A DNA stretch of 10,379 nucleotides, taken from positions 1 to 10,379 of the forward strand of contig CAMOWO010000019.1 in NCBI GenBank assembly GCA_946628525.1. The letters are read 5' to 3'. A program made the position numbers and the translations under genes. The DNA is from an uncultured Bacillota bacterium (lineage in GTDB: Bacteria > Bacillota_A > Clostridia > Peptostreptococcales > Anaerovoracaceae). Below, in pieces: positions 2 to 9,566 of this stretch (its first letter is position 1; each line of letters begins with the position of its first letter). The notes below the pieces were generated by a model. That model saw only the letters and a list, made by a program, of their open reading frames with translations. It was not told the DNA's origin and did no database searches.

Positions 2-196
2 GAAGAAAGTAAGATGGCGTCCATCGATATCAGAGGCCGCTCGTACAAAGAACTCCTGGCGGACTTCGACCTCACGATCATAAATGAGGCGATCGCAGAG
101 GAAGGATCCCTTCCGAAGGCTGCGAAGCTTTTGGGGGTGGACCCGACGACCCTGAGAAGGAAGATCGCGAAATACAAAGGAAATGCCGAGTCATGA
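2..196 (+). CDS. C-terminal end of sigma-54-dependent regulator (TyrR/Fis-type HTH), 5' truncated by window
   Basis: The reading frame is open from base 2, so the ATG at base 14 is probably internal and this is the last ~64 residues of a larger protein. The visible part (SYKELLADFDLTIINEAIAE, then GSLPKAAKLLGVDPTTLRRK) matches the TyrR-like/Fis-type helix-turn-helix at the C-terminus of NtrC/RocR/TyrR-class enhancer-binding proteins. The turn is at LLGVDPT and the recognition helix is TTLRRKIAKYK. In that family an N-terminal sensor (often PAS) and an AAA+ sigma-54-activating domain precede it; both lie outside the window. The case is strengthened by the near-perfect sigma-54 promoter about 240 bases downstream and by inverted repeats between the two. 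I infer that it activates the ureohydrolase-creatininase cluster, probably in response to that cluster's substrate. The HTH assignment is firm; the sigma-54 class is inferred from this context. Confidence 0.85.
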   Translation, partial: EESKMASIDIRGRSYKELLADFDLTIINEAIAEEGSLPKAAKLLGVDPTTLRRKIAKYKGNAES

Positions 197-209
197 GAAG
201 AGCGTGCGC

Positions 210-233
210 TTTTGCATGACAAATCGTGCAAAA
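210..233. promoter_or_regulatory. Candidate upstream activator site (inverted repeat TTTTGCATGA-N4-TCGTGCAAAA)
   Basis: Arms at 210-219 and 224-233 are inverted repeats of 10 bp with one mismatch; the outer 7 bp (TTTTGCA/TGCAAAA) are perfect. The centre lies about 237 bases upstream of the predicted sigma-54 start, within the usual range for enhancer sites. It begins 13 bases after the regulator's stop codon. The AT-rich arms and lack of a T-tract argue against a terminator. The core CGTGCAAAAATGCA (225-238) recurs with one change at 302-315 (CGTGCGAAAATGCA). The binding protein is inferred, not shown. Confidence 0.5.
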
Positions 234-260
234 ATGCAGTGGACATATTTCCGTGAAAAC

Positions 261-274
261 CGCTGAATTCAGCG
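261..274. promoter_or_regulatory. 14-bp perfect palindrome, possible operator
   Basis: CGCTGAATTCAGCG is perfectly self-complementary. It is followed at 276-287 by a second small inverted repeat, TGTAC-AC-GTACA. Both lie between the regulator gene and the sigma-54 promoter, about 170-200 bases upstream of the predicted start. They could be dimer-binding sites for the TyrR/Fis-type activator or for another regulator. Only the symmetry is seen; function is inferred. Confidence 0.35.
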
Positions 275-294
275 ATGTACACGTACAAGCATAG

Positions 295-326
295 AAAAGA
301 CCGTGCGAAAATGCATGGTCTTTTTT
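295..326 (+). terminator. Rho-independent terminator of the regulator gene (possibly bidirectional)
   Basis: Stem AAAAGACCGTGC (295-306) pairs with GCATGGTCTTTT (313-324), one G-T pair, with loop GAAAAT (307-312). It is followed by further Ts, giving a T-run at 320-326. It isolates the regulator transcript from the downstream sigma-54 operon. The A-run on the left arm would let it act from the other strand too. Its loop region also repeats the sequence found at 225-238, so it may double as a protein-binding site. Confidence 0.85.
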
Positions 327-431: not shown

Positions 432-448
432 TTGGCACGCTAATTGCG
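432..448 (+). promoter_or_regulatory. Sigma-54 (-24/-12) promoter of the ureohydrolase-creatininase operon
   Basis: TTGGCACGCTAATTGCG matches the sigma-54 consensus (TTGGCACG-N4-TTGC). The invariant GG is at 434-435 and GC at 446-447, with the required 10-bp spacing. Transcription should begin near 458-460, leaving a ~35-base leader before the first gene. An AT-rich 13-bp palindrome, AATAAT-C-ATTATT (414-426), lies just upstream. Such a promoter needs an ATP-dependent enhancer-binding activator, consistent with the regulator fragment at the left edge. No competing sigma-A promoter was seen in this gap. Confidence 0.92.
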
Positions 449-494
449 TTTTATATAGGTGCTTAAAGAAACCGTAATTTAAAGGAGGATCATG

Positions 495-1451
495 ATGACT
501 AAAAAGTATGTACCGCTGAATTCCTTAGAAAGCCCGCGCTTCGCGGAAGTCAAGACGTTTATGAGATTGCCGTATGTCAAGACGACGGAAGATATCGACT
601 ATGCAGTGGTAGGTGTACCATTCGATACAGGTGTCACCTACAGGACAGGCCAGAGATTCGGTCCTTCAGCCATCAGAGACATCTCATCTCTGATCAAACC
701 GTACAACATCCCGCAGGATGTGAATGTGGTGGAAGAACTGTCGGGCGTGGACTACGGTGATGTGCCGGTAAATCCGGGATACATCCTGGACACCTATGAA
801 AGGATGGTGGACACGCTGTCACCTCTCGTGGAGGCAGACGTCATCCCGATCTGTATGGGAGGAGATCATTCCATCACACTGGGAGAACTCAGAGCCGTCG
901 CGAAGAAGCACGGCCCGGTAGCACTCGTACACTTCGATTCTCACTTCGACACCATCGATGAGTACTTCGGCAAGAAGTACAATCACGGAACCGTGTTCAA
1001 GAGAGCATGCGAAGAGGGACTGATCGACGTGGAGCATTCCATCCAGATCGGAATGAGAGGAACCTTCTATGACAGAAGCGACCTGACAGGGTCAGAAGAA
1101 CTGGGATTCAAAGTCATCACAAGCTTCGAGATGCGAGAGATCGGCCTCGAGCAGGTGAAGAAGGAAATCAAAGAGAGAGTCGGTGATGCGAAGGCATTCC
1201 TCACATTCGACATCGATTTCGTAGACCCGGCATATGCACCGGGCACAGGAACCATAGAAGTCGGCGGCTGGACAGGTCCGGAATCCCTCGACCTTGTCAG
1301 ATCCCTCAGAGACATCAACTTCGTAGGTTTCGACCTCGTGGAAGTGATGCCGCAGCAGGATCAGAGCCAGATCACCGCGTTCCTGGCAGGCAATATCATG
1401 TTCGAGTTCATCTCGATCCTGGCTTACCAGAGAAAGAACGCAGGCAAGTAA
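495..1451 (+). CDS. Ureohydrolase, agmatinase/guanidino-acid amidinohydrolase family
   Basis: A cytoplasmic, binuclear-manganese ureohydrolase (arginase/agmatinase family) that hydrolyses a guanidino group to urea plus amine. Numbering from the ATG at 492, metal-ligand motifs are complete: GGDHS (His126), DSHFD (Asp149, His151, Asp153) and FDIDFVDP (Asp240, Asp242). NHGTVF (His165) resembles agmatinase-type enzymes. Two positions are unusual: DSH replaces the common DAH, and APGTGTIEVGG has Ile where most members have Pro. Length (318-319 aa) is normal. Two ATGs, 492 and 495, are adjacent; AGGAGG at 483-488 is 6 bases from 495 but only 3 from 492, so I prefer 495. It is first in the sigma-54 operon, 20 bases before a creatininase. 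The substrate cannot be read from sequence: agmatine, guanidinobutyrate, guanidinoacetate and creatine are possible, and the creatininase favours the last two. Confidence 0.9.
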   Translation: MTKKYVPLNSLESPRFAEVKTFMRLPYVKTTEDIDYAVVGVPFDTGVTYRTGQRFGPSAIRDISSLIKPYNIPQDVNVVEELSGVDYGDVPVNPGYILDTYERMVDTLSPLVEADVIPICMGGDHSITLGELRAVAKKHGPVALVHFDSHFDTIDEYFGKKYNHGTVFKRACEEGLIDVEHSIQIGMRGTFYDRSDLTGSEELGFKVITSFEMREIGLEQVKKEIKERVGDAKAFLTFDIDFVDPAYAPGTGTIEVGGWTGPESLDLVRSLRDINFVGFDLVEVMPQQDQSQITAFLAGNIMFEFISILAYQRKNAGK

Positions 1452-1471
1452 GAAGAACGGAGGTAGTTAGT

Positions 1472-2221
1472 ATGAGTGTGTTTATGCAGGAAATGACTTG
1501 GCAGGATTTCAATGAGAAGAAGGACGGCGCGATCTGCATCCTGCCGGTTGGTTCTACGGAGCAGCATGGCCCTATGCTCCCACTGTCAGTTGACGCGATC
1601 ATCAGCACGGGCCTTGCGGAAATGATCGCACAAAAGGTGGACGGCATCGTGGCACCGTGCGTGTGCTACGGATACAAGTCGGCACCGCTCTCCGGAGGAG
1701 GTCCCGCATTCCCGGGAACCATCGACATGAACGGAGTGACGCTCATGAACCTTATACAGGATATTTTGGAAGAACTGATAAGGGACGGAGTGAAAAAGAT
1801 ATTCATCATGAATGGCCATTATGAAAATGAAGCCTTCGTACTTGAGGCTATGGATCTCGTTTCAAGGAATCACGAAGACGTGACGATGATCGAGAGCAGC
1901 TGGTGGGATGTGATGTCGGACGACGTCATGGCCAAGGTGTTCGATGAAGTAGAGTATCCGGGGATCGAGCTAGAACATGCCGGGATCCTGGAAACATCGC
2001 TGACGATGTACTTCAGACCGGAGCTGGTCAAGTGGGACAGATTCGTAGAAGACGGAGTGGAAGGGACTCTCGGATACAACATCTATCCGCCTTCAAAATG
2101 TGAGGTGACAGACACAGGCCTTCTGACGACGGCAAGAACTTCGACACCGGAGAAGGGACAGCTTCTGGCAGAGGACATCGTGGATGCATACGTTAAGATC
2201 TTTGAGGAAAGATTTGAGTAA
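1472..2221 (+). CDS. Creatininase (creatinine amidohydrolase family)
   Basis: Likely hydrolyses a cyclic guanidino amide; for the type enzyme, creatinine + water gives creatine. The 249-aa protein has LPVGSTEQHG (Glu30, His32), Asp41, YGYKSAPLSGGG, FPGT, MNGHYEN (His116, Glu118) and ELEHAGILETS (Glu168, His169, Glu174). Compared from memory with Pseudomonas creatininase (metal ligands Glu34, His36, Asp45, His120, Glu122), all ligands line up with a constant offset of four. NGHYEN, rather than the NGHGGN common in other family members, points to a genuine creatininase. Trp154 of that enzyme appears kept (Trp145), but the flap Trp174 position is Ile165 here, which may change substrate fit. Mycofactocin MftE-type and FAPy-deformylase-type relatives fit less well. 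The start follows GGAGGT (1459-1464) by 7 bases. It probably works in sequence with the upstream ureohydrolase. Confidence 0.88.
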   Translation: MSVFMQEMTWQDFNEKKDGAICILPVGSTEQHGPMLPLSVDAIISTGLAEMIAQKVDGIVAPCVCYGYKSAPLSGGGPAFPGTIDMNGVTLMNLIQDILEELIRDGVKKIFIMNGHYENEAFVLEAMDLVSRNHEDVTMIESSWWDVMSDDVMAKVFDEVEYPGIELEHAGILETSLTMYFRPELVKWDRFVEDGVEGTLGYNIYPPSKCEVTDTGLLTTARTSTPEKGQLLAEDIVDAYVKIFEERFE

Positions 2222-2244
2222 ATGTAGTAAGGAAGGAGAGTCTA

Positions 2245-3699
2245 ATGGAAACTAGAAAATTCGTAGACAATCCTGTGAATGGCGCAGAGGAGAGATTGAA
2301 ACAGCTGGGCTATAAACAGGAACTTCAGAGGGGCCTGTCGACCCCGATGAACGTAGTCATGGGTTTGGCGAACGTTTCGCCGGTAATGGCTGCATTCACC
2401 TATGCACTGGCGGCCTTCGCAACGGTAGGTACAGCGACGGCAGGCGGAACGCTGCTTCAGTGTATCAACGTATTTTGTATCGGTATGATCCTGGCAGAAC
2501 TGGGATCCATCTATCCTGTATCAGGAGGACTTTACTCCATCACCAGTTACGTGCTTCCGAAGCCGCTGGTATTCCTGGGCGTATTCAACTTCATGATCCA
2601 GGCATTCATCTACATCCCGGCTATCGCCATGGGCGTCGGCCAGTATATGCAGATCCTGTTCCCACAGCTTCCGCAGGGAACACTGGCATGCAGCGTGATT
2701 TCGGCATTATCCCTTATTGCGGCGTTGCTCATCGGACTGAATTCCATCGTGACAAACAGCCGCGTGACCGTTATATTCCTGGTCGTACAGATGATCATCG
2801 TATTCGTGTTCCTGTACATCTGCTTCGCTCATCCACAGAGGAACCTGGGAGAAGTCCTCTTCCACCCTCAGATGCTGAATGCAGATGGAACGGCACTGGA
2901 ACCTGCGAACTTCGCATCCGTACTCATGGGCCTGGGCATCATGTGTGCAGCCATCGACGGATATGGAGCATCTCTTGGATTCTCAGAGGAGACGAAGGGT
3001 TCATGTAAAAACGTCGGTAAGGCAGTATTTGCAACAGCCTTCCTGACACTGTTCTTCGTAGGACTGTGCGATATCATCTCCATGGTAGCAGCACCTGATC
3101 TTCTCAGCTTCCTGCAGGCAGATTCGCCGCTGCTGTACGTCATCAACTCCTACATGGGACCGATCGGAACGACCATGATGAACATCGGTATCATCATCGC
3201 ATCATTCGGATGTAACTGCGTACTCATCAGCTACATGGGAAGAGTCCTCTGGACAGGCGGGCGTGACAGACTGTGGCCTGACAAGATCAACAACGCACTT
3301 ATGAAGGTATCCGGAAAATCACAGGTCCCTTACGTAGCGCTTATCCTGATCGCTGTCGTAGACTGCATCCTGGTATTCGCTTCCGATATCGTAACGATGA
3401 TCACATTCGGCGGAATGAGTGCGGCGCTGGTTTACATGCTCATCGCCATCGGCTCCATCCGTCACAGAATCGTCGAAAAAGACATCACAAGACCGATCAA
3501 GATGCCGCTGTTCCCAATTCCTTCGATCCTGGTCATCTGCTTCCTCTGCGTAGCAATAGGCTCACAGACACCGCAGGATCTGATGATCGTAGGCATCATC
3601 GTGGCAATAGCAATGCTCTACTATCTGCTCTACTACAGACCTAGAGAAAAAAGAGAAGCAGCAGAGGCAGCAGCAAAGGAGGGTAACACAAATGAGTAA
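2245..3699 (+). CDS. APC-superfamily amino acid/amine permease
   Basis: A polytopic inner-membrane permease of the amino acid-polyamine-organocation superfamily, probably 12 helices. An N-terminal cytoplasmic stretch ends in QLGYKQELQRGLS. The first helix carries GLANVSPVMAAFTYALA, the substrate-binding unwound-helix region of the fold. The loop SEETKGSCKNVGKAV (Glu248-Glu249 onward) is the family's conserved EE-x-K cytoplasmic motif. The C-terminus is a basic and Ala/Glu-rich tail. Length (484 aa) is normal. AAGGAG (2233-2238) sits 6 bases before the ATG, 23 bases after the creatininase stop; the 3' end overlaps the next gene by 8 bases (ATGAGTAA), suggesting translational coupling. From context I infer uptake of the operon's guanidino or cyclic substrate, or exchange with a product. 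The family spans many amino acids and amines, so specificity is unknown. Confidence 0.9.
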   Translation: METRKFVDNPVNGAEERLKQLGYKQELQRGLSTPMNVVMGLANVSPVMAAFTYALAAFATVGTATAGGTLLQCINVFCIGMILAELGSIYPVSGGLYSITSYVLPKPLVFLGVFNFMIQAFIYIPAIAMGVGQYMQILFPQLPQGTLACSVISALSLIAALLIGLNSIVTNSRVTVIFLVVQMIIVFVFLYICFAHPQRNLGEVLFHPQMLNADGTALEPANFASVLMGLGIMCAAIDGYGASLGFSEETKGSCKNVGKAVFATAFLTLFFVGLCDIISMVAAPDLLSFLQADSPLLYVINSYMGPIGTTMMNIGIIIASFGCNCVLISYMGRVLWTGGRDRLWPDKINNALMKVSGKSQVPYVALILIAVVDCILVFASDIVTMITFGGMSAALVYMLIAIGSIRHRIVEKDITRPIKMPLFPIPSILVICFLCVAIGSQTPQDLMIVGIIVAIAMLYYLLYYRPREKREAAEAAAKEGNTNE

Positions 3700-4306
3700 G
3701 ACGATATTTATTGCAGGTATTTCCGGAAGGATGGGGTCCGCCGCGGCCGGTCTCTTCAAGAAGGCAGGCTGGAACGTGACAGGTCTCGATATCAAACCGG
3801 AAGGATGCGGGTGCGAGGACACCTTCATATCAGCAGATGTAAGAGATCCTGAAGCTGTCGCAGCCGCCATCGAGAAGGTGGATTCTCAAACTCCGATCGA
3901 TGCCGTATTCAACGCCGCAGGCTATGAGCTTGCAAAGGACTTTGAAGCGGTAACGGCAGAAGAGTGGGCGGACCTTCTGGACACGACGCTGGGCGGCGCC
4001 GGCAACCTTTGCAGAGCCATAGGCCCGAAGATGGCGGAGAGAAAAGAGGGTAAGATCATCCTCTTCTCCTCGGACTACAGCAGAGCCGAAGGAGATACCG
4101 TCGTCGATGCCGTTGCAGCGCATACCCTTCATGGGTTCGCGAAGAGTTTCGGCGTTGAGATGGCACCGGAAAACGTGCTTGTCAATGTGATATTCGCCAA
4201 TACTCCGCTGGATGCCGAGAAGGTCAGTGAGACGGTATTCTTCCTGGCCGACAAGGATACATATACGTCTGCACAGGTCGTATCCATCGGCGGACAGGAT
4301 CAGTAG
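3692..4306 (+). CDS. Short SDR-fold protein lacking catalytic Tyr/Lys (probable pseudoenzyme)
   Basis: A 204-aa protein with short-chain dehydrogenase architecture but a degraded active site. The dinucleotide motif is AGISGRMG (residues 8-15), with Arg13 where the middle Gly of TGxxxGxG is expected. Asp33 after strand 2, DV at 49-50 and NAAG (74-77) are kept. The catalytic Asn position is Thr98/99. A Ser is present (126-127), but where YxxxK should follow the sequence is DTVVDAVAAHTLHGFAKS: no Tyr or Lys at those places (aligned residues Asp139/Ala143 or Ala140/His144). The substrate-binding lobe between NVIFANTPLD and SETVFFLAD is about 25 residues shorter than in typical 245-260-aa SDRs. 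Both ends look native, with RBS AAAGGAGGG at 3675-3683 and a terminal VSIGGQDQ. Overlap with the permease and a 12-base gap to an intact SDR suggest a non-catalytic partner subunit. Confidence 0.8.
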   Translation: MSKTIFIAGISGRMGSAAAGLFKKAGWNVTGLDIKPEGCGCEDTFISADVRDPEAVAAAIEKVDSQTPIDAVFNAAGYELAKDFEAVTAEEWADLLDTTLGGAGNLCRAIGPKMAERKEGKIILFSSDYSRAEGDTVVDAVAAHTLHGFAKSFGVEMAPENVLVNVIFANTPLDAEKVSETVFFLADKDTYTSAQVVSIGGQDQ

Positions 4307-4317
4307 GAGGTGACGAA

Positions 4318-5097
4318 ATGAAATACGAAGAAATGAAAGGCAGAAAAGTGCTCATCACCGGCGGTACCCAGGGCATCGGAGAAGCCATGGCCGATACATT
4401 CACTGCCGACGGAGCAAATGTCGTGATAAACGGAAGGACCCTCAATGAGAAGGTTCAGAAGGTCCTGGACAGAACGGGGGCCAAAGCCTCCATGGGCAGT
4501 CTCATAGACCCGCAGACAGCCGCAGAAGTCGTGCGCAACGCGGCGGAGATCGCAGGAGGCCTTGATGTGCTCATCTGCAACGCAGCAGGCATGAGCATGG
4601 CGCCGTTCCTCGAGAGCGTTCCTGAGGAATGGTGGTCCCAGATCAAGATCAACCTCTCCGGCCACATAGCATGCATCAAGGAAGCCATTCCGATCATGCG
4701 TGCGAACGGCGGCGGTACCATTATCCTGATCAGCTCCTTCTTCGGAACCATCGGTTGGAACAATGCCACAGGATACGGCTCCTCCAAGTCGGGACTCGTG
4801 GCACTGGGGCAGTACCTGGCGAGAAAGTATAAAGACGATAACATCAGAGTATGCACCATCATACCGGGCGTTATCGATACGCCGCAGCTGAATGTGGACG
4901 CCAACGATCTCGGTATATCCCTGGATGAAGTTCGCGAGATGTATGCCCAGGATATCGCCATGGGAAGGATCGCGAGACCTTCAGAGATCGCAGAGGCCGC
5001 GCTCTATATGGCAAGCGATGCCGGAAGCAAAGCACTGAACGGACGCCACCTCATCGTGAGCGGAGGAGAATACAGGTCAACACCTTATTACATTTAA
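4318..5097 (+). CDS. Short-chain dehydrogenase/reductase (intact)
   Basis: A cytoplasmic NAD(P)-dependent oxidoreductase of the classical SDR family, 259 aa. Cofactor motif TGGTQGIG (14-21), NAAG (88-91) and the tetrad Asn112, Ser140, Tyr153 and Lys157 (YGSSK) are complete. The Ser-to-Tyr spacing of 13 is canonical. Arg40 just after strand 2 suggests preference for NADP(H). A normal substrate lobe follows (PGVIDTPQL, then GRIARPSEIAEA) and the C-terminus ends GGEYRSTPYYI. The start follows TAGGAGGTGA (4304-4313), which overlaps the stop codon of the preceding dead SDR, so the two are almost surely co-translated. I infer that they form one heteromeric dehydrogenase; BbsCD of anaerobic toluene degradation is a precedent for an inactive-active SDR pair. 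The substrate is unknown; annotation as 3-oxoacyl-ACP reductase would be generic. Confidence 0.88.
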   Translation: MKYEEMKGRKVLITGGTQGIGEAMADTFTADGANVVINGRTLNEKVQKVLDRTGAKASMGSLIDPQTAAEVVRNAAEIAGGLDVLICNAAGMSMAPFLESVPEEWWSQIKINLSGHIACIKEAIPIMRANGGGTIILISSFFGTIGWNNATGYGSSKSGLVALGQYLARKYKDDNIRVCTIIPGVIDTPQLNVDANDLGISLDEVREMYAQDIAMGRIARPSEIAEAALYMASDAGSKALNGRHLIVSGGEYRSTPYYI

Positions 5098-5185
5098 CCA
5101 TACAGTCGCGAGAAGCGGGGAGGCGCACCGTAAACGCATCTTCCCGCAGCATGAGCCCTGAACGGACGGGCAAGGAGGAAAGAAT

Positions 5186-5944
5186 ATGAAGAAACTTGAA
5201 AACAGAGTCGCAGTCATCACTGGAGGAAGCAGAGGCATCGGAAAGGGCATCGCTCTTGAATTCGCAAAGAACGGCGCGAACATCGCCATCTCATATAATT
5301 CCAACAAAGAGGCGGCCGATCAGACTGTGGCAGAATGCGAGAAGTACGGCGTAAAGGCCATCGCAGTCCAGGCGAACGCAGGAAATTCAGAAGACGTCAG
5401 GAAGATGGCGGACATCGTGAAAAAAGAATTCGGATTCGTCGACATCCTCGTGAACAATGCAGGAACGATCGGCCTTGAAGTAACGATAGAAGACATGGAA
5501 GAAGCAGAATGGGATCGCGTCGTCAACACCGACCTCAAGGGTGTATTCCTCAACTGCAAATATTTCATCCCGCTCATCAAAGCGAGAGCAGACGGAACCG
5601 TCGGAAAGATCATCAACATCTCATCAGAACTGTCGAAGAAGGGAAGAGAATGCTACGGACACTACGCAGCATCAAAGGGCGGCATCAACTCACTGACGAT
5701 GTGCCTGGCACTGGAGCTTGCGCCGGAGATCAACGTCAACATCGTTGCACCGGGCCCGATCGAAACGGATATGATCCTTGCAGACATGGAGCCTGAATGG
5801 GTAGAAAAAGAAAAGGACATCCCTCTCAGAAGACTCGGTACAGTTGAAGAAATCGCAGCAACAGCATTGCTTCTGGCATCCGACGACGGCAACTTCTTCT
5901 GCGGCCAGTTCGTAAGCCCGAACGGCGGAGCAGTATTTTTCTAA
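5186..5944 (+). CDS. FabG-like short-chain dehydrogenase/reductase
   Basis: A second intact SDR, 252 aa, most like FabG-type 3-oxoacyl reductases and their many catabolic relatives. It has TGGSRGIG (12-19), NNAG (90-93), Ser147, and YAASK with Tyr160 and Lys164. The position normally Asn in the tetrad appears to be Asp116 (VNTDLKGVF), a variant occasionally seen. The usual APGPIETDM and GTVEEIAATALLLASDD segments follow. It has its own RBS, AAGGAGG (5172-5178), 7 bases before ATG. It lies 88 bases after the previous SDR; I saw no promoter or convincing terminator in that gap, so it probably belongs to the same operon. As an isolated gene among catabolic functions, away from other fatty-acid synthesis genes, a role on a pathway hydroxy- or oxo-acid is more likely than lipid synthesis, but this is inference. 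Confidence 0.88.
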   Translation: MKKLENRVAVITGGSRGIGKGIALEFAKNGANIAISYNSNKEAADQTVAECEKYGVKAIAVQANAGNSEDVRKMADIVKKEFGFVDILVNNAGTIGLEVTIEDMEEAEWDRVVNTDLKGVFLNCKYFIPLIKARADGTVGKIINISSELSKKGRECYGHYAASKGGINSLTMCLALELAPEINVNIVAPGPIETDMILADMEPEWVEKEKDIPLRRLGTVEEIAATALLLASDDGNFFCGQFVSPNGGAVFF

Positions 5945-5984: not shown

Positions 5985-6013
5985 CGGGGTCCTTTACGGG
6001 ACCCCGGCATTTT
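5985..6013 (+). terminator. Intrinsic terminator or attenuator at the end of the SDR operon
   Basis: Stem CGGGGTCC (5985-5992) and GGACCCCG (5999-6006), loop TTTACG, followed by GCATTTTGT. The 8-bp GC-rich stem is strong but the T-tract is short and interrupted. The next gene starts only 18 bases after the feature, with no clear promoter between, so it may allow partial read-through. Confidence 0.75.
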
Positions 6014-6031: not shown

Positions 6032-6952
6032 TTGAACAGAATATACTACATATTCCCCGTGGCGGCCGGGATCCTCTTTGGCTCAGCGGGAAGCTTCGTA
6101 AGACCGATGGCATCCTATGGATTCAACGCCGTGACCATCGTTGCCCAAAGGTCTGCGTTTGCTGTGATCATGCTGGCGGTGGTACTTCTTCTGTACGACC
6201 GCACCCTTTTGCGCGTCAAGGTCCGCGATCTCTGGGTCTTCGCGCTGGCGGGGATCTTCGGTGTGACGATAATGAATGTATGTTATAACGTCGCCATGAG
6301 GGAAACGACGCTGGCTCTTGCGGCAGTGCTGCTGAGCATTTTTCCGATCTTCGTCTTTCTCTTCGCACGCATTTTTTTCGGGGAGAAGATCACGAAGCGC
6401 AAAGTATTGTGCAGTTTCCTGGCCATACTGGGGTGCTATATGGTATCTGATTTGCCCGGGATCGCAGGTGGTGTGCCCATGACAAAAATGGGGATCATCA
6501 TGGGAGCGCTGACGCCGCTGTTTTATTCCATGTACACCATCGGTTCGAGGTTCGCCGTAGACAGGGGATACCGGTCGCTGACCATAACGTTTTACAGCAC
6601 CGTGTTCATGGTCATCGTGCTGACACCTTTTGCGGATTGGGGGATGGTGCTTGAGTATGGCGCCGCAGCCCCTCTGGCTCACTGGTCCCTCATGATCGGG
6701 CACGCCATATGCGTCCTCGTTCTTCCGTACATGCTGTTTACGACGGGGATCCAGCACATCGATGCGGGCAAAGCATCGATCCTGTCATCCTGCGAGCCAG
6801 CTTCTGCCATGGTGTTCGGCGCCGTTCTGTTCGGGGAGATCCCGGCGGTGGTTTCCGTTGCCGGACTCATCCTCGTGGCCGTCGCCATCAGCGTGATCTC
6901 CATGCCGGAAAAAAGGGACCGTGAAACGAGTGCCGTCAGCAGCGGCGATTGA
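6032..6952 (+). CDS. EamA/DMT-superfamily transporter (TTG start)
   Basis: A 306-aa inner-membrane protein of the drug/metabolite transporter superfamily, with two EamA repeats and about ten hydrophobic helices. The first repeat includes GILFGSAGSFVRPM and ends with SIFPIFVFLFARIFFGEKIT. The second ends with LSSCEPASAMVFGAVLFGEIP, the typical helix-9 motif. A short charged tail follows. The start is TTG, supported by AAGGAGA (6020-6026) 5 bases upstream and by the natural N-terminus MNRIYYIFPV. Family members export or import amino acids, nucleosides and other small metabolites; specificity cannot be assigned. It uses CGC/CGT arginine codons more freely than the operon genes, which suggests lower expression or separate history. 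It sits directly behind the operon's terminator and may be expressed by read-through, for example to export an end-product; that link is speculative. Confidence 0.88.
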   Translation: MNRIYYIFPVAAGILFGSAGSFVRPMASYGFNAVTIVAQRSAFAVIMLAVVLLLYDRTLLRVKVRDLWVFALAGIFGVTIMNVCYNVAMRETTLALAAVLLSIFPIFVFLFARIFFGEKITKRKVLCSFLAILGCYMVSDLPGIAGGVPMTKMGIIMGALTPLFYSMYTIGSRFAVDRGYRSLTITFYSTVFMVIVLTPFADWGMVLEYGAAAPLAHWSLMIGHAICVLVLPYMLFTTGIQHIDAGKASILSSCEPASAMVFGAVLFGEIPAVVSVAGLILVAVAISVISMPEKRDRETSAVSSGD

Positions 6953-7055: not shown

Positions 7056-7114
7056 GTACGAGGTGTGGCGTGCGATTCCGCAGGCACTGTTACGGTCACC
7101 GGCGAAGCGAACAT

Positions 7115-7189
7115 AGACAATAGATAAACCCCAGAGATTGTCTGAGCCATAAAGGTTTCAAGGCGAGTTTCTCTGGGGTTCTATTGTCT
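7115..7189. repeat. Long inverted repeat (20-bp stem with a 3-base bulge)
   Basis: The left arm is AGACAATAGA (7115-7124), a TAA bulge (7125-7127), then ACCCCAGAGA (7128-7137). The right arm is TCTCTGGGGT (7170-7179) and TCTATTGTCT (7180-7189). All 20 paired positions match. The 32-base loop (7138-7169) could hold a small inner helix. As RNA this would be a very stable hairpin on either strand. Only a weak T-rich stretch follows, so it is not a textbook terminator. Confidence 0.85.
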
Positions 7190-7283
7190 GTGAGTAAGTC
7201 GTTGTGGCCGTCAGTGAGGAGCAAGCCCTAGCCCCGCGATTCACGAAGGGAGAGCGGAGGCAGGTCTGCTGCAAAGGCTGCCC

Positions 7284-7337: not shown

Positions 7338-8576
7338 TTATAAATCTGTAACTTTGAATATATAGTTATCCCGAATCAGTCTCGTGTATCTGATTTTGTT
7401 CTTGATCTTTTTCTTCTTGCCTTTGTAGACTTTGATGCGCCACTTGTCAAGATAGTAGGTCTTGTAGTAGGAGCGGTAGTAGCCTGCATAGAGAACGTTG
7501 TGCCTGTGGAAGATGGTCTCCACCTCATACCGTCTGCAAAGCTTCACGGTGCTCAGGTACTTGCCGGACCAGTCGTAGACGGTGATCTTGTTGTACCGTC
7601 CGCCTTTGTACGGGCTCTGGCTCACCAGATTGTAATCGCCATAGGAATCGATGCCCTGGTAGAGCTGGCCGCCCTTGACTTTGAGGGTCACGTACTTGAC
7701 TGCTTTGAGCTGATTGTTGAGGTACAGCAGGTTGCCCTGCTTCTTCACTCGGGCGACGTACATTTTGTGCTCCCTGTTGTAGGCCAGGGCCGTGATGCCG
7801 ACGAAGCTCCTGGAGCGCTTGTAGCTTGCACCTTTTGTGCCCCTCGGGAGGGTCAGGGTGACGGTCCTTTTTACGGCGAGGGTCGAAGGGTCCACCAGGG
7901 TGACCTTCTTGTAACTGTACGGCCCGTGGGCGATGGCCACTTCCTTCGTGTTCGGATTGTAGGCGACGCTGCTTCCGTGGCCCACGTTCAGGATGGCCGA
8001 GACGTTCATGACCTCCATGGTCTTCATGTTGACTTTCGCCAGTTTGCACTTGTTGACGTTTCTGTTGTACAGGATGAACCATCCCAGATTGCCGTATGCC
8101 GTACCGCCCTGGAGCGTGTCGTACTTCTTCATCTTCTGCTTGGCAGCGCTGCGGAGTTCGAACTCCTTGCCGTTGGGCTTCGTCACGCGGATGATGATGG
8201 CTTCCTTGTTGTTCCTCGTGTTGCCTGAGACGGCCCAGCTGGAGTATTTATAGCCATCATCGGTTTTTTTGAACGTCCGGATACGAAGGTAGCAAGGCAG
8301 CATGTTCCGGCCGGCGACACGCTTTGAAGTGGCTTTTGCACCCTTCACGATGACGTTCGTCTTGTTGAGGAAGAACCGGTCGTGGGAGTACTGGATCTGG
8401 TATCCGGTGACGCCGCTCACTTTTTTCCATGAGATCGTGTAATAACTCTTCTGTACCGTGTACTTCGTGATCTTCGTCGGTGCCGGAGCGCCCGATGCAG
8501 CATAGGTGTCATCCATGAAAACAGGCGTCGTCAAAAACATGCAAATTATGATCAATATCGATGTGATTCTTTTCAT
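7338..8576 (-). CDS. Secreted basic protein: signal peptide, FN3 domain, propeller-like C-terminal region
   Basis: A 412-aa exported protein of unknown function. Residues 1-27 form a signal peptide (MKRITS, hydrophobic core, cleavage probably after TYA or YAA). Residues ~33-120 look like a fibronectin type III domain of clostridial surface-protein style (YYTISWKKVSGVTGYQIQYS, then YLRIRTFK and YSSWAVSG). The remaining ~290 residues are beta-rich, with repeated blade-like segments (KLAKVNMKTMEVMNV; HGSSVAYNPNTKEVAIAH; KVTLVDPSTLAVKRTVTL; NKITVYDWSGKYLSTVKL), suggesting a beta-propeller. The protein is strongly basic, ending in a Lys/Tyr/Arg-rich tail, so it may bind cell-wall polymers. No catalytic motif or sortase signal is seen. 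AGAGG lies about 6 bases before the ATG. It is transcribed away from the NlpC/P60-like gene through a shared promoter region, so the two may serve the envelope together. Confidence 0.85.
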   Translation of the reverse strand: MKRITSILIIICMFLTTPVFMDDTYAASGAPAPTKITKYTVQKSYYTISWKKVSGVTGYQIQYSHDRFFLNKTNVIVKGAKATSKRVAGRNMLPCYLRIRTFKKTDDGYKYSSWAVSGNTRNNKEAIIIRVTKPNGKEFELRSAAKQKMKKYDTLQGGTAYGNLGWFILYNRNVNKCKLAKVNMKTMEVMNVSAILNVGHGSSVAYNPNTKEVAIAHGPYSYKKVTLVDPSTLAVKRTVTLTLPRGTKGASYKRSRSFVGITALAYNREHKMYVARVKKQGNLLYLNNQLKAVKYVTLKVKGGQLYQGIDSYGDYNLVSQSPYKGGRYNKITVYDWSGKYLSTVKLCRRYEVETIFHRHNVLYAGYYRSYYKTYYLDKWRIKVYKGKKKKIKNKIRYTRLIRDNYIFKVTDL

Positions 8577-8639: not shown

Positions 8640-8651
8640 GTGCCATGTTAC

Positions 8652-8681
8652 TTGATAATACTATATAAAAAGAGGTATAAT
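8652..8681 (+). promoter_or_regulatory. Sigma-A-type promoter for the NlpC/P60-like gene
   Basis: -35 TTGATA (8652-8657) and a perfect -10 TATAAT (8676-8681) with an 18-base spacer. Transcription should begin near 8688. This places the promoter inside the longest possible reading frame (GTG at 8640), showing that the gene must start later. Its -35 box lies 12 bases from that of the divergent promoter, so a single regulator could control both. Confidence 0.8.
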
Positions 8682-8693
8682 GTACGCGTCTTA

Positions 8694-9566
8694 ATGGCAA
8701 AGGGAAAGGTGCGAAAAGTGATAAGATTCAAGGGAAAAAACATAATACTGGCATCTGCCGTCGTGTTCATATCGATCCTCGTTCTTACGATGGGTCTTCT
8801 TGTCATGTCATTCGCAGCGGAAGATGCCGAGGACACCGGAAGCAGCGAGAACGTGCGGCCGGAGGGAGTCGCCAGCGTCTTTGCGGTACCTGCAGAGGAA
8901 GATGCCTTCAAAGGCATCGCCAAGACCATGAAGAAGAACTCCCGAGGTGTGATCAAGAAGAACATGGTGGCGGCAGCTTCCAGCGGACAGGATCCGGAGG
9001 ACACCCTCAGGATGAGGCAGGAAGCGGCGCGTTTTGCAGCAGTGGACTGGGCTATAACCATCGCAGAGGATGATTCCTTCCACTACGGCGAGTCCAAGTG
9101 GGCCCACCATAATGGGTGCTATTTCTGCGGAACGAACCAGAAAGAAAACAGCCTCAAGAGAAAGGACGGCGCGGGATTCGAAGAGAGCGAGCGCACATAC
9201 TGCTGCAACCCATTCGTGACAGCAGCCTTTGTGCATGGGGCAGGAGCCACGGAGATGGACTGCCGCGTGGCAAGCAAGCGTCTGGGACTTTCCCGGGACA
9301 GCAACAAGGTCCTGAAGAACAAGGACGCCTTCGAGAAAATAACAAAACCTGCAAGTGCAGAGCAGCTGGAAGTCGGTGACATCCTTTTGACACCGACACA
9401 TGCCATGCTGTACATCGGATCGGGAGCCGTGGCAGAAGCGGCCCATCACGATGACGGCGTGCAGAACGATTACTGGAACGACTCCATAAGATGTAAACCG
9501 ATAAGCAGCAGACAGTGGAACAGAGTCGAACTTATTTACAGATATATTGGGACGGGAGCATATTAA
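8694..9566 (+). CDS. Exported NlpC/P60-like (papain-fold) cysteine hydrolase
   Basis: A probable cell-wall hydrolase or amidase acting outside the membrane, 290 aa. Residues 1-42 are a basic n-region plus hydrophobic core ending MSFAAEDAED, a signal peptide or membrane anchor. A low-complexity linker follows to ~100. The catalytic domain (~105-290) has ERTYCCNPFVTAAFVHGAG (Cys170 or Cys171 as nucleophile at the start of a helix) and LEVGDILLTPTHAMLYIG (Asp229, His236), the usual Cys and GD-x-H order of NlpC/P60 domains; His251/His252 may complete the site. Extra cysteines (CYFC, 142-145) are unusual and may bind metal or form a disulfide. Start: ATG 8694 would leave a leader of only ~6 bases without RBS; GTG 8718, behind AAAGG (8705-8709), is a credible alternative. 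It lies 18 bases before the AEC gene, probably co-transcribed. Confidence 0.78.
   Translation: MAKGKVRKVIRFKGKNIILASAVVFISILVLTMGLLVMSFAAEDAEDTGSSENVRPEGVASVFAVPAEEDAFKGIAKTMKKNSRGVIKKNMVAAASSGQDPEDTLRMRQEAARFAAVDWAITIAEDDSFHYGESKWAHHNGCYFCGTNQKENSLKRKDGAGFEESERTYCCNPFVTAAFVHGAGATEMDCRVASKRLGLSRDSNKVLKNKDAFEKITKPASAEQLEVGDILLTPTHAMLYIGSGAVAEAAHHDDGVQNDYWNDSIRCKPISSRQWNRVELIYRYIGTGAY

Follow-up and report, generated by a model that had tools for sequence, protein, structure and literature searches.

The 10,379-base stretch of DNA analysed here (the window) carried a single operon at 492-5944, comprising genes for a ureohydrolase, a creatininase, an APC permease, and three SDRs, with a -24/-12 promoter ahead of it and a terminator behind (Table 1). 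We read it, with a probability of roughly 0.55, as a substrate-induced sigma-54 operon through which a small cyclic acylguanidine of the creatinine type is catabolised, redox steps included. Shown directly are which genes the operon contains, their conservation and catalytic residues, and the promoter with its palindromes.

All six open reading frames lay on the plus strand, with 20 bases separating the ureohydrolase from the creatininase, and family profiles assigned the first three products to Arginase (293.5 bits), Creatininase (193.1 bits), and AA_permease_2 (121.1 bits) and the remaining three to the SDRs, in agreement with the gene arrangement given by the initial annotation. Its count of three SDRs held as regards family membership, but SDR1 was without the SDR catalytic residues. 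The EamA gene at 6032 sits behind the terminator and was rejected as an operon member; its product shared 58% identity with the EamA of L039 and 23-25% with those whose genes lie close to creatininase in L003, L046, and L049.

Table 1. Positions in the window of the operon genes and of their control elements
Feature	Positions	Strand	Basis
Activator, C-terminal end, Fis-type HTH, sigma-54 enhancer-binding; rest outside the window	2..196	+	HTH_8, 37.1 bits
Palindrome 1, TGCGCTTTTGCA, probable activator-binding (enhancer) site, predicted	205..216		Conservation
Palindrome 2, TGCAAAAATGCA, probable activator-binding site, predicted	227..238		Conservation
Palindrome 3, TGCGAAAATGCA, probable activator-binding site, predicted	304..315		Conservation
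-24/-12 sigma-54 promoter, TGGCACGCTAATTGC	433..447	+	Like site in 8/8 upstream regions
Ureohydrolase, guanidino-acid type, 319 aa; K69 at GbuA R72 position	492..1451	+	Profiles, structure matches, alignment
Creatininase, 249 aa; E30, H32, D41, H116, E118	1472..2221	+	Curated model, structure matches, alignment
APC-family permease, 484 aa	2245..3699	+	Profiles
SDR1, dead SDR by sequence, 204 aa; DAVAA replaces YxxxK, substrate loop absent	3692..4306	+	Alignment
SDR2, YxxxK intact (Y153/K157); family tracks operon	4318..5097	+	Profiles, alignment
SDR3, FabG-like, YxxxK intact (Y160/K164)	5186..5944	+	Profiles, alignment
Rho-independent terminator hairpin, 9-pair stem then GCATTTTG, closes operon	5985..6006	+	86-base stretch folds at z -3.33

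The components of a sigma-54 operon were all present, namely a -24/-12 promoter, an activator gene, and upstream sites. The promoter had 0 mismatches and was the sole match in the window at ≤1 mismatch; the chance level of the motif in the window averaged 0.32, and because 50 of 200 shuffles gave at least one match, the motif alone is weak evidence. Within the 296-base region between the activator and the ureohydrolase, the promoter score was equalled by 3 of 500 shuffles, and a promoter-like site scoring 10-12 of 12 was found in all eight activator-to-ureohydrolase-type upstream regions (equalled by 0 to 19 of 500 shuffles), bearing out the earlier claim of one -24/-12 promoter. The activator end in the window shared 58% identity over 55 residues with its counterpart upstream in L001. 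In L001 and L070, the orthologue is full-length, lies directly upstream, and is a PAS/sigma-54 activator; the activators in L002, L037, L069, and L071 were identified through similarity to these. In addition, TGYR-N4-TGCA palindromes, which likely form an enhancer, occurred in the upstream regions of seven of the eight loci, with none found in that of L038.

The seven-gene block (activator plus six genes) was found, with gene order and strand unchanged, in six further genomes (L001, L002, L037, L069, L070, and L071), with creatininase identities of 65-86%. Within the family of G001, the creatininase was detected at E ≤ 1e-60 in 7 of 349 genomes and the ureohydrolase at ≥69% identity in 7 of 345, six genomes being common to both sets. 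The co-occurrence survey proposed in the initial annotation thus found the gene pair conserved, so that non-conservation in related genomes, named there as grounds for refutation, does not apply. Matching of contig sizes was supportive only: at least 21 sizes were common to the 120 ureohydrolase and 120 creatininase matches listed (0.95 with shifted sizes), 25 sizes of SDR2 matches (118 of the 120 listed being compared) were shared with listed ureohydrolase or creatininase matches, and 23 of the 54 listed SDR2 contigs of ≥4500 bases were matched, leaving 31 unmatched. L039 (genome G263) was not taken as a case in which the ureohydrolase had been lost naturally: its creatininase gives a match only beginning at residue 26 and is directly adjoined by a histidine kinase gene, a junction that may be an assembly join.

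The creatininase scored 304.7 bits against the curated equivalog model TIGR04448 (cut-off 235), as expected from the earlier view that it looked genuine, and kept the E, H, D, H, and E residues of Table 1 together with the Trp of SWWD (equivalent to Trp154), which are the metal-binding or catalytic residues. Trp174 of the Pseudomonas putida enzyme, a lid residue and not a criterion of the TIGR04448 model, is replaced by I165 in the window, and the pocket has drifted in this respect. The position is variable, being Trp in 98 and Ile in 42 of 140 aligned creatininases including that of the window and Phe in the solved chain 3a6e, and Trp is kept in five operon copies (L037, L038, L069, L070, and L071), for which reason the Trp-to-Ile change was rejected as proof of a new substrate. 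A literature search on creatininase with Trp174 found nothing.

Matches of the creatininase to other models were weak (MftE, 87 bits, cut-off 172; IolN, 84 bits, cut-off 245). They are consistent with a scheme in which an SDR-oxidised compound is cleaved at a non-guanidine bond by the creatininase-family protein (compare IolN and 3-dehydro-scyllo-inosose) while the ureohydrolase strips a guanidino side group. A dehydrogenase step followed by a hydrolase step, as in this scheme, is like the inositol route, and an amidinotransferase-like protein of L003 distantly matches inosamine-phosphate amidinotransferase (112.6 bits). However, the TIGR04448 score and the unreached IolN and MftE cut-offs speak for a true creatininase, as do the neighbours of its 52-55% identical relatives, making this scheme improbable. 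In the order genomes with such relatives, a CodA-like deaminase gene lay beside the creatininase gene in 7 of 12 loci examined, an arrangement resembling, by analogy, the known creatinine deaminase route. This route is represented by CodA/CrnT and CreT-CrnA in Corynebacterium glutamicum (PMC8864220); in Tissierella creatinophila, its enzymes include a cytosine deaminase and an N-carbamoylsarcosine amidase (PMC5364220). It likewise employs creatininase, in T. creatinophila within an anaerobe, whereas the window operon has no deaminase, hydantoinase, or carbamoylsarcosine amidase and its predicted product is urea.

The metal ligands of the ureohydrolase (H126, D149, H151, D153, D240, and D242) were complete, and its K69 aligned with the carboxylate-capping Arg72 of GbuA, where the Escherichia coli agmatinase SpeB has Trp. 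It passed the agmatinase model TIGR01230 (212.6 bits, cut-off 174.3), and among solved structures GbuA (262 bits) and GpuA (248 bits) were closer than the agmatinase 7lba (E. coli SpeB, 208 bits). With both the basic residue at the GbuA R72 position and the full arginase-fold metal set, it appears to be of the guanidino-acid hydrolase kind and not an agmatinase. A plain agmatinase, which the initial annotation held would refute its scheme, was rejected on the sequence side, as K69 takes the place of a non-basic cap residue. The enzyme resembles GbuA, GpuA, and human AGMAT in family, metal ligands, and basic carboxylate cap (which of the two variants of AGMAT is Arg in one), but it has Lys for Arg and shares an operon with a ring-opening enzyme. 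Moreover, its substrate may be an alpha-guanidino acid, a type that the GbuA-type human AGMAT does not use, creatine and guanidinoacetate not being hydrolysed (PMC9772407).

Ureohydrolase paralogues (54-61% identity) adjoined BCCT transporters, as confirmed in three loci, which suggests linear guanidino acids as their substrates. In G534 (L097), a 69-70% identical ureohydrolase had neither creatininase nor SDR beside it, so this enzyme can serve elsewhere. Together with GbuA and GpuA as nearest solved structures, these observations favour a mixed scavenging set, in which creatinine would be the substrate of the creatininase and a separate, linear guanidino acid, for instance 3-guanidinopropionate or 4-guanidinobutyrate, that of the ureohydrolase. 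Such a set is nonetheless unlikely, since the two genes were coupled in all six complete copies and in L038, the amidinotransferase of L003 suggests one common guanidino intermediate, and the SDRs would be left unexplained.

The YxxxK motif was missing from SDR1 in all nine sequences compared, and we infer that this dead SDR is likely a partner subunit of the active SDR2. The predicted structure of SDR1 was poor (pLDDT 66) and has no bearing on such a complex. BbsCD is an SDR heteromer with one inactive subunit, and it resembles the present pair in that a dead SDR, here known as such from sequence alone, adjoins an active one. It differs in that specific sequence kinship of SDR1 was not seen: among the best 60 of 277 structure matches of the SDR1 profile, BbsD stood at 62.6 bits amid generic SDRs and BbsC was absent, leaving BbsC homology unsupported. 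SDR2 belongs to a tight family (129 proteins at E ≤ 1e-60) with four matches among 297 order genomes, all four of which also had a creatininase match. The doubt already raised in the initial annotation, that the SDRs do not fit a simple scheme, was strengthened by this restriction of SDR2 to creatininase-bearing genomes and by L003, which retains the SDRs and the permease though no close ureohydrolase was found in its genome. By these comparisons, the SDRs are integral to the operon. A literature search on creatininase with SDR and agmatinase found nothing, and none of the creatinine routes compared uses an SDR in the portions of the literature consulted.

In that simple scheme, the creatininase converts creatinine to creatine, from which the ureohydrolase releases urea to give sarcosine; sarcosine or glycine is then fermented, and the SDRs are passengers or act on side products. 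The conserved pair, the creatininase model score, and the guanidino-acid type of the ureohydrolase agree with it, as do a GrdB-type reductase in four of the nine genomes that carry the operon, whole or in part (G001, G290, G366, and G368) and T. creatinophila, which ferments creatinine via creatine and sarcosine with no creatine amidinohydrolase gene detected in its genome (PMC5364220). However, SDRs were found in all six complete copies, L039, and L003, GrdB was not found in the other five genomes (G002, G003, G110, G263, and G507), and the AGMAT specificity noted above points the same way. In G507, GrdB (sarcosine/glycine reductase B) had no match, glycine decarboxylase none over cut-off, and urease only short and weak ones, so it is not obvious that sarcosine and urea would enter those routes in this genome. 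The scheme as a whole is supported in part and is rather unlikely.

The classical creatinine pathway pairs creatininase with creatinase, a pita-bread enzyme. The same pairing is given in PMC11764249. The window operon shares with it ring opening by a creatininase of the same curated family and a second hydrolase yielding urea, but this second hydrolase is a metal ureohydrolase of the arginase fold, there are SDRs and an APC permease in addition, and creatinase was unrecognised in relatives. In a weak test for creatinase across nine relatives' genomes, PF01321 had 0 matches in G001 and 17 in the other eight, none recognised as creatinase. Sixteen of the 17 were classified with NCBIfam models; 14 matched peptidase-, DoeA-, or DddP-type models below cut-offs, and two matched no model at E ≤ 1e-20. 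Two PF01321 proteins were compared with solved structures, and creatinase was not among the matches.

L003, from one Gram-negative genome, carries the APC, SDR1, SDR2, SDR3, and creatininase genes near a gene for a protein like L-arginine:glycine amidinotransferase (AGAT; 176 bits). The SDR-APC genes run divergently from the AGAT-like and creatininase genes, and a 569-aa gene separates the two groups, which hence need not form one unit. AGAT itself also acts on guanidino compounds. The likeness to AGAT and SxtG lies in a related protein near a creatininase in a genome without a close ureohydrolase; the L003 protein differs in being predicted to run in the catabolic direction, in one genome only.

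For the sigma-54 operon reading, the activator binding, reaction order, import, SDR1-SDR2 complex, and substrate class are proposed as follows. The activator would bind three TGCR-N4-TGCA sites and switch on transcription from the -24/-12 promoter; import of the cyclic compound would fall to the APC permease, opening of its ring to a guanidino acid to the creatininase, and removal of urea, leaving an amino acid, to the ureohydrolase. In the L003 variant, the amidino group would probably be passed to an acceptor rather than released in urea. SDR2 (with dead SDR1 as likely partner subunit) and SDR3 may each carry out an NAD(P)-dependent step at a hydroxyl or carbonyl group, either of the substrate or of the product. 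More tentatively, the operon may be dedicated to the anaerobic degradation of a cyclic acylguanidine that bears a hydroxyl or oxo group and has no described route, combining redox by SDR1-SDR2 and SDR3, a drifted creatininase, and loss of the amidino group as urea or via reversed AGAT, which, if true, would save the guanidine as arginine. A literature search on hydroimidazolone breakdown by gut bacteria returned nothing on topic, judged by title.

Large amounts of creatinine and related guanidines are excreted. Their creatinase-free anaerobic breakdown is unsettled, as the creatine amidinohydrolase gene went undetected even in the creatinine fermenter T. creatinophila (PMC5364220). New here are the dead SDR1, the SDR2 family that tracks the operon, the palindromes, and the Gram-negative AGAT-like variant. 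With a ureohydrolase standing where creatinase would be expected, this conserved operon could name a metal creatinase, a guanidinoacetase, or a new guanidine metabolite.

ORF and profile searches revealed a six-gene operon encoding an arginase-family ureohydrolase, a creatininase, an APC permease and three short-chain dehydrogenases (SDR1 to SDR3), with intergenic gaps of 20, 23, -8, 11 and 88 bases in that order, bearing out the gene order and the 20-base gap described in the initial annotation. Because a hairpin terminator follows the operon, the EamA gene beyond it is probably a separate unit. At its start, the window encodes a regulator's Fis-type HTH end, which shares 58% identity over 55 residues with the upstream activator of L001 (a locus in another genome), and the upstream activators in L001 and L070 (probably Sinanaerobacter chloroacetimidivorans) are of the PAS/sigma-54 type. 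Further downstream, an inverted repeat (13 nt, arms 55 nt apart) occupies a gene-poor stretch, a 412-aa and a 308-aa protein had no Pfam, NCBIfam or PHROG match, and an Rfam scan of the window gave no match.

Features of the window (positions in nucleotides)
Feature	Position	Strand	Detail
TGYR-N4-TGCA palindromes	205, 227, 304		motif search
Imperfect 18-nt palindrome, control region	252-283		centre CGCTGAATTCAGCG
Sigma-54 (-24/-12) promoter	433-447	+	TGGCACGCTAATTGC
Operon	492-5944	+	six genes
Ureohydrolase	492-1451	+	
Creatininase	1472-2221	+	
APC permease	2245-3699	+	
SDR1	3692-4306	+	
SDR2	4318-5097	+	
SDR3	5186-5944	+	
Hairpin terminator	5985-6006		
EamA gene	6032		
Inverted repeat	7112-7192		
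412-aa protein	7338-8576	-	
308-aa protein	8640-9566	+	

The block activator-ureohydrolase-creatininase-APC-SDR1-SDR2-SDR3 was complete and in identical order in six loci (L001, L002, L037, L069 of a probable Anaerovorax odorimutans, L070, and L071), with 65-86% (creatininase) and 70-86% (ureohydrolase) identity to the window, so that the proposed check for ureohydrolase-creatininase pairing in relatives was answered by six complete copies. In L038, the stretch stops inside the APC gene, and L039 has the genes from creatininase through SDR3 plus EamA with no ureohydrolase at that place, perhaps owing to an assembly join; its genome holds ureohydrolases of 25-31% identity only. At L039:1592-3537, the creatininase match starts at residue 26 and a histidine kinase gene abuts it, which may reflect an assembly join or rearrangement. 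Within the family of genome G001, the creatininase was found in 7/349 genomes (E<=1e-60) and the ureohydrolase in 21/345 (E<=1e-95); ureohydrolase identity was 69% or higher in seven of those 345, of which six also had the creatininase and the seventh (G534, locus L097) had no creatininase or SDR genes beside its ureohydrolase. In the order sample, 4/297 genomes had SDR2 (E<=1e-60), and each of these four also gave a creatininase match; in the phylum sample SDR2 was detected in 1/299 genomes (G001 only).

The promoter was conserved as well, as a -24/-12 site with 10-12 of 12 consensus positions lay upstream of the ureohydrolase gene in all eight loci compared (the window, L001, L002, L037, L038, L069, L070, and L071), its score being reached by 0 to 19 of 500 shuffles of the same upstream regions, in agreement with the earlier claim of sigma-54 control. 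Between the activator gene and the promoter, the palindrome TGYR-N4-TGCA occurred in seven of these loci (three copies in six, two in L071), a copy number reached by 0/500 shuffles, with the first two copies 18-22 bases apart in three-copy loci; this region of L038 had none. Across the whole window, the search returned 4 matches, and that many appeared in 11/200 shuffles. These palindromes are likely binding sites of the activator.

The creatininase scored 304.7 bits with TIGR04448 (cut-off 235), far above its MftE and IolN scores, and its alignment retained the catalytic residues. The position of Trp174 in the P. putida creatininase corresponds to Ile165 in the window (counted from the alignment) and is Trp in five other operon copies, with 42 Ile and 98 Trp across 140 aligned sequences, window included. 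Among solved structures, the ureohydrolase matched the guanidino-acid ureohydrolases GbuA (262 bits) and GpuA (248) best, then proclavaminate amidinohydrolase (230), with E. coli agmatinase SpeB (7lba, 208) behind these. Its Lys69 aligns with GbuA Arg72, which PMC9772407 describes as an active-site cap from the neighbouring subunit that could bind the substrate carboxylate; at this position GpuA has Arg, proclavaminate amidinohydrolase has His, and SpeB has Trp. Because GbuA and GpuA match better than SpeB, and given the cap residue Lys69, the name agmatinase is on sequence grounds probably wrong, despite the pass with model TIGR01230 (212.6 vs 174.3 bits).

Elsewhere, ureohydrolases of 60% identity adjoin a PF04199 cyclase-family hydrolase, together with an NCS1 permease (L098:6945-10020) or an MFS_2 transporter (L099:5375-8452, a second copy in the Sinanaerobacter genome G507), and this hydrolase is possibly another ring-opening enzyme supplying a ureohydrolase. 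Paralogues of 54-61% are paired with BCCT transporters in L072, L100 and L103 (confirmed by Pfam) and, judged by appearance, in L101, L102 and L106, with genes for LuxR-type or sigma-54 activators nearby.

In L003, from a Desulfovibrionaceae MAG whose contig has lpxC as expected of a Gram-negative, APC, SDR1, SDR2 and SDR3 share one strand (SDR3 is cut by the stretch end), and divergent from them lie an amidinotransferase-like gene, an EamA gene and a creatininase gene (52% identical), with a 569-aa gene of weak TPR matches between the two sets. The amidinotransferase-like protein scored 178 bits with SxtG and 176 with L-arginine:glycine amidinotransferase, had no Pfam or NCBIfam match, and aligned at the DAAD, HID and HC motifs. 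The L003 genome had no close ureohydrolase (best 31% identity), and SDR2 (E<=1e-70) occurred in 1/199 genomes of its order, L003's own. This single genome would represent a natural swap of an amidinotransferase for the ureohydrolase, the function being predicted from sequence.

A contrasting context was observed in 12 further loci of the order sample (L040-L051, 11 genomes; creatininase 52-55% identical), where neither the ureohydrolase nor any SDR gene of the operon adjoined the creatininase (12/12). Clustering identified CodA-like deaminase (7/12), PucR regulator (8/12) and EamA (5/12) genes as neighbours, with two deaminases and two regulators confirmed by profile, and L004 (Clostridium porci) likewise had a creatininase (47% identical) plus a CodA-like gene. 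These gene sets fit the creatinine deaminase route reported for C. glutamicum (PMC8864220) and the genes listed for Tissierella creatinophila, in which a creatine amidinohydrolase gene was not detected (PMC5364220).

For the downstream steps, nine genomes with the whole or partial operon were surveyed. The expectation that the host could use sarcosine or glycine held in part, as a GrdB-type reductase was present in G001, G290, G366 and G368 but not found in G002, G003, G110, G263 and G507. Urease alpha matched in 8/9 genomes (above cut-off in 7), strongly only in G366, G110 and G263 (144-158 bits); the remaining matches were partial (<=30.3 bits), and G003 had none. Glycine decarboxylase had no match above cut-off in G001 and G507, the latter a large genome (4.8 Mb). 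Because genome completeness is not given, such absences are weak evidence. G001 gave no match to the creatinase family PF01321, and the remaining eight genomes gave 17; 16 of the 17 were compared with NCBIfam, of which 14 matched models of the peptidase, ectoine hydrolase or DddP type without reaching the models' cut-offs, and 2 matched no model at E<=1e-20. Two PF01321 proteins had no creatinase among their matches to solved structures. As to the initial view that creatinase is absent, none was recognised among the 16/17 proteins classified, but these relatives may harbor a divergent one.

The YxxxK motif was intact in SDR2 (Y153/K157) and SDR3 (Y160/K164), whereas SDR1 had neither Tyr nor Lys at this position in 9/9 sequences (eight aligned plus the Anaerovorax frame), lacked ~30 residues at the substrate-binding stretch of SDR2, and in the window had Arg in place of the second Gly of the cofactor motif. 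This dead SDR beside an active one resembles the heteromer BbsCD, but no specific kinship of SDR1 to BbsCD was seen among the matches listed in profile searches of solved structures. SDR2 forms a tight family of 129 proteins (E<=1e-60), at whose edge full-length identity drops from 54% to 47%. On these grounds, the SDRs look like part of the pathway rather than passengers.

Among the matches listed in a search of open-licence literature (titles and abstract openings), no description of such a gene set was found. There is good support for an operon logic in which the ring is opened first and the amidino group is then taken off, with creatinine or glycocyamidine as the conservative substrate choice. 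The earlier remark that the SDRs do not fit the simple creatine scheme gains from their conservation in the block: because the SDRs are conserved and one genome has no recognised outlet for sarcosine, glycine or urea, a relative carrying a hydroxyl or oxo group is a realistic candidate.
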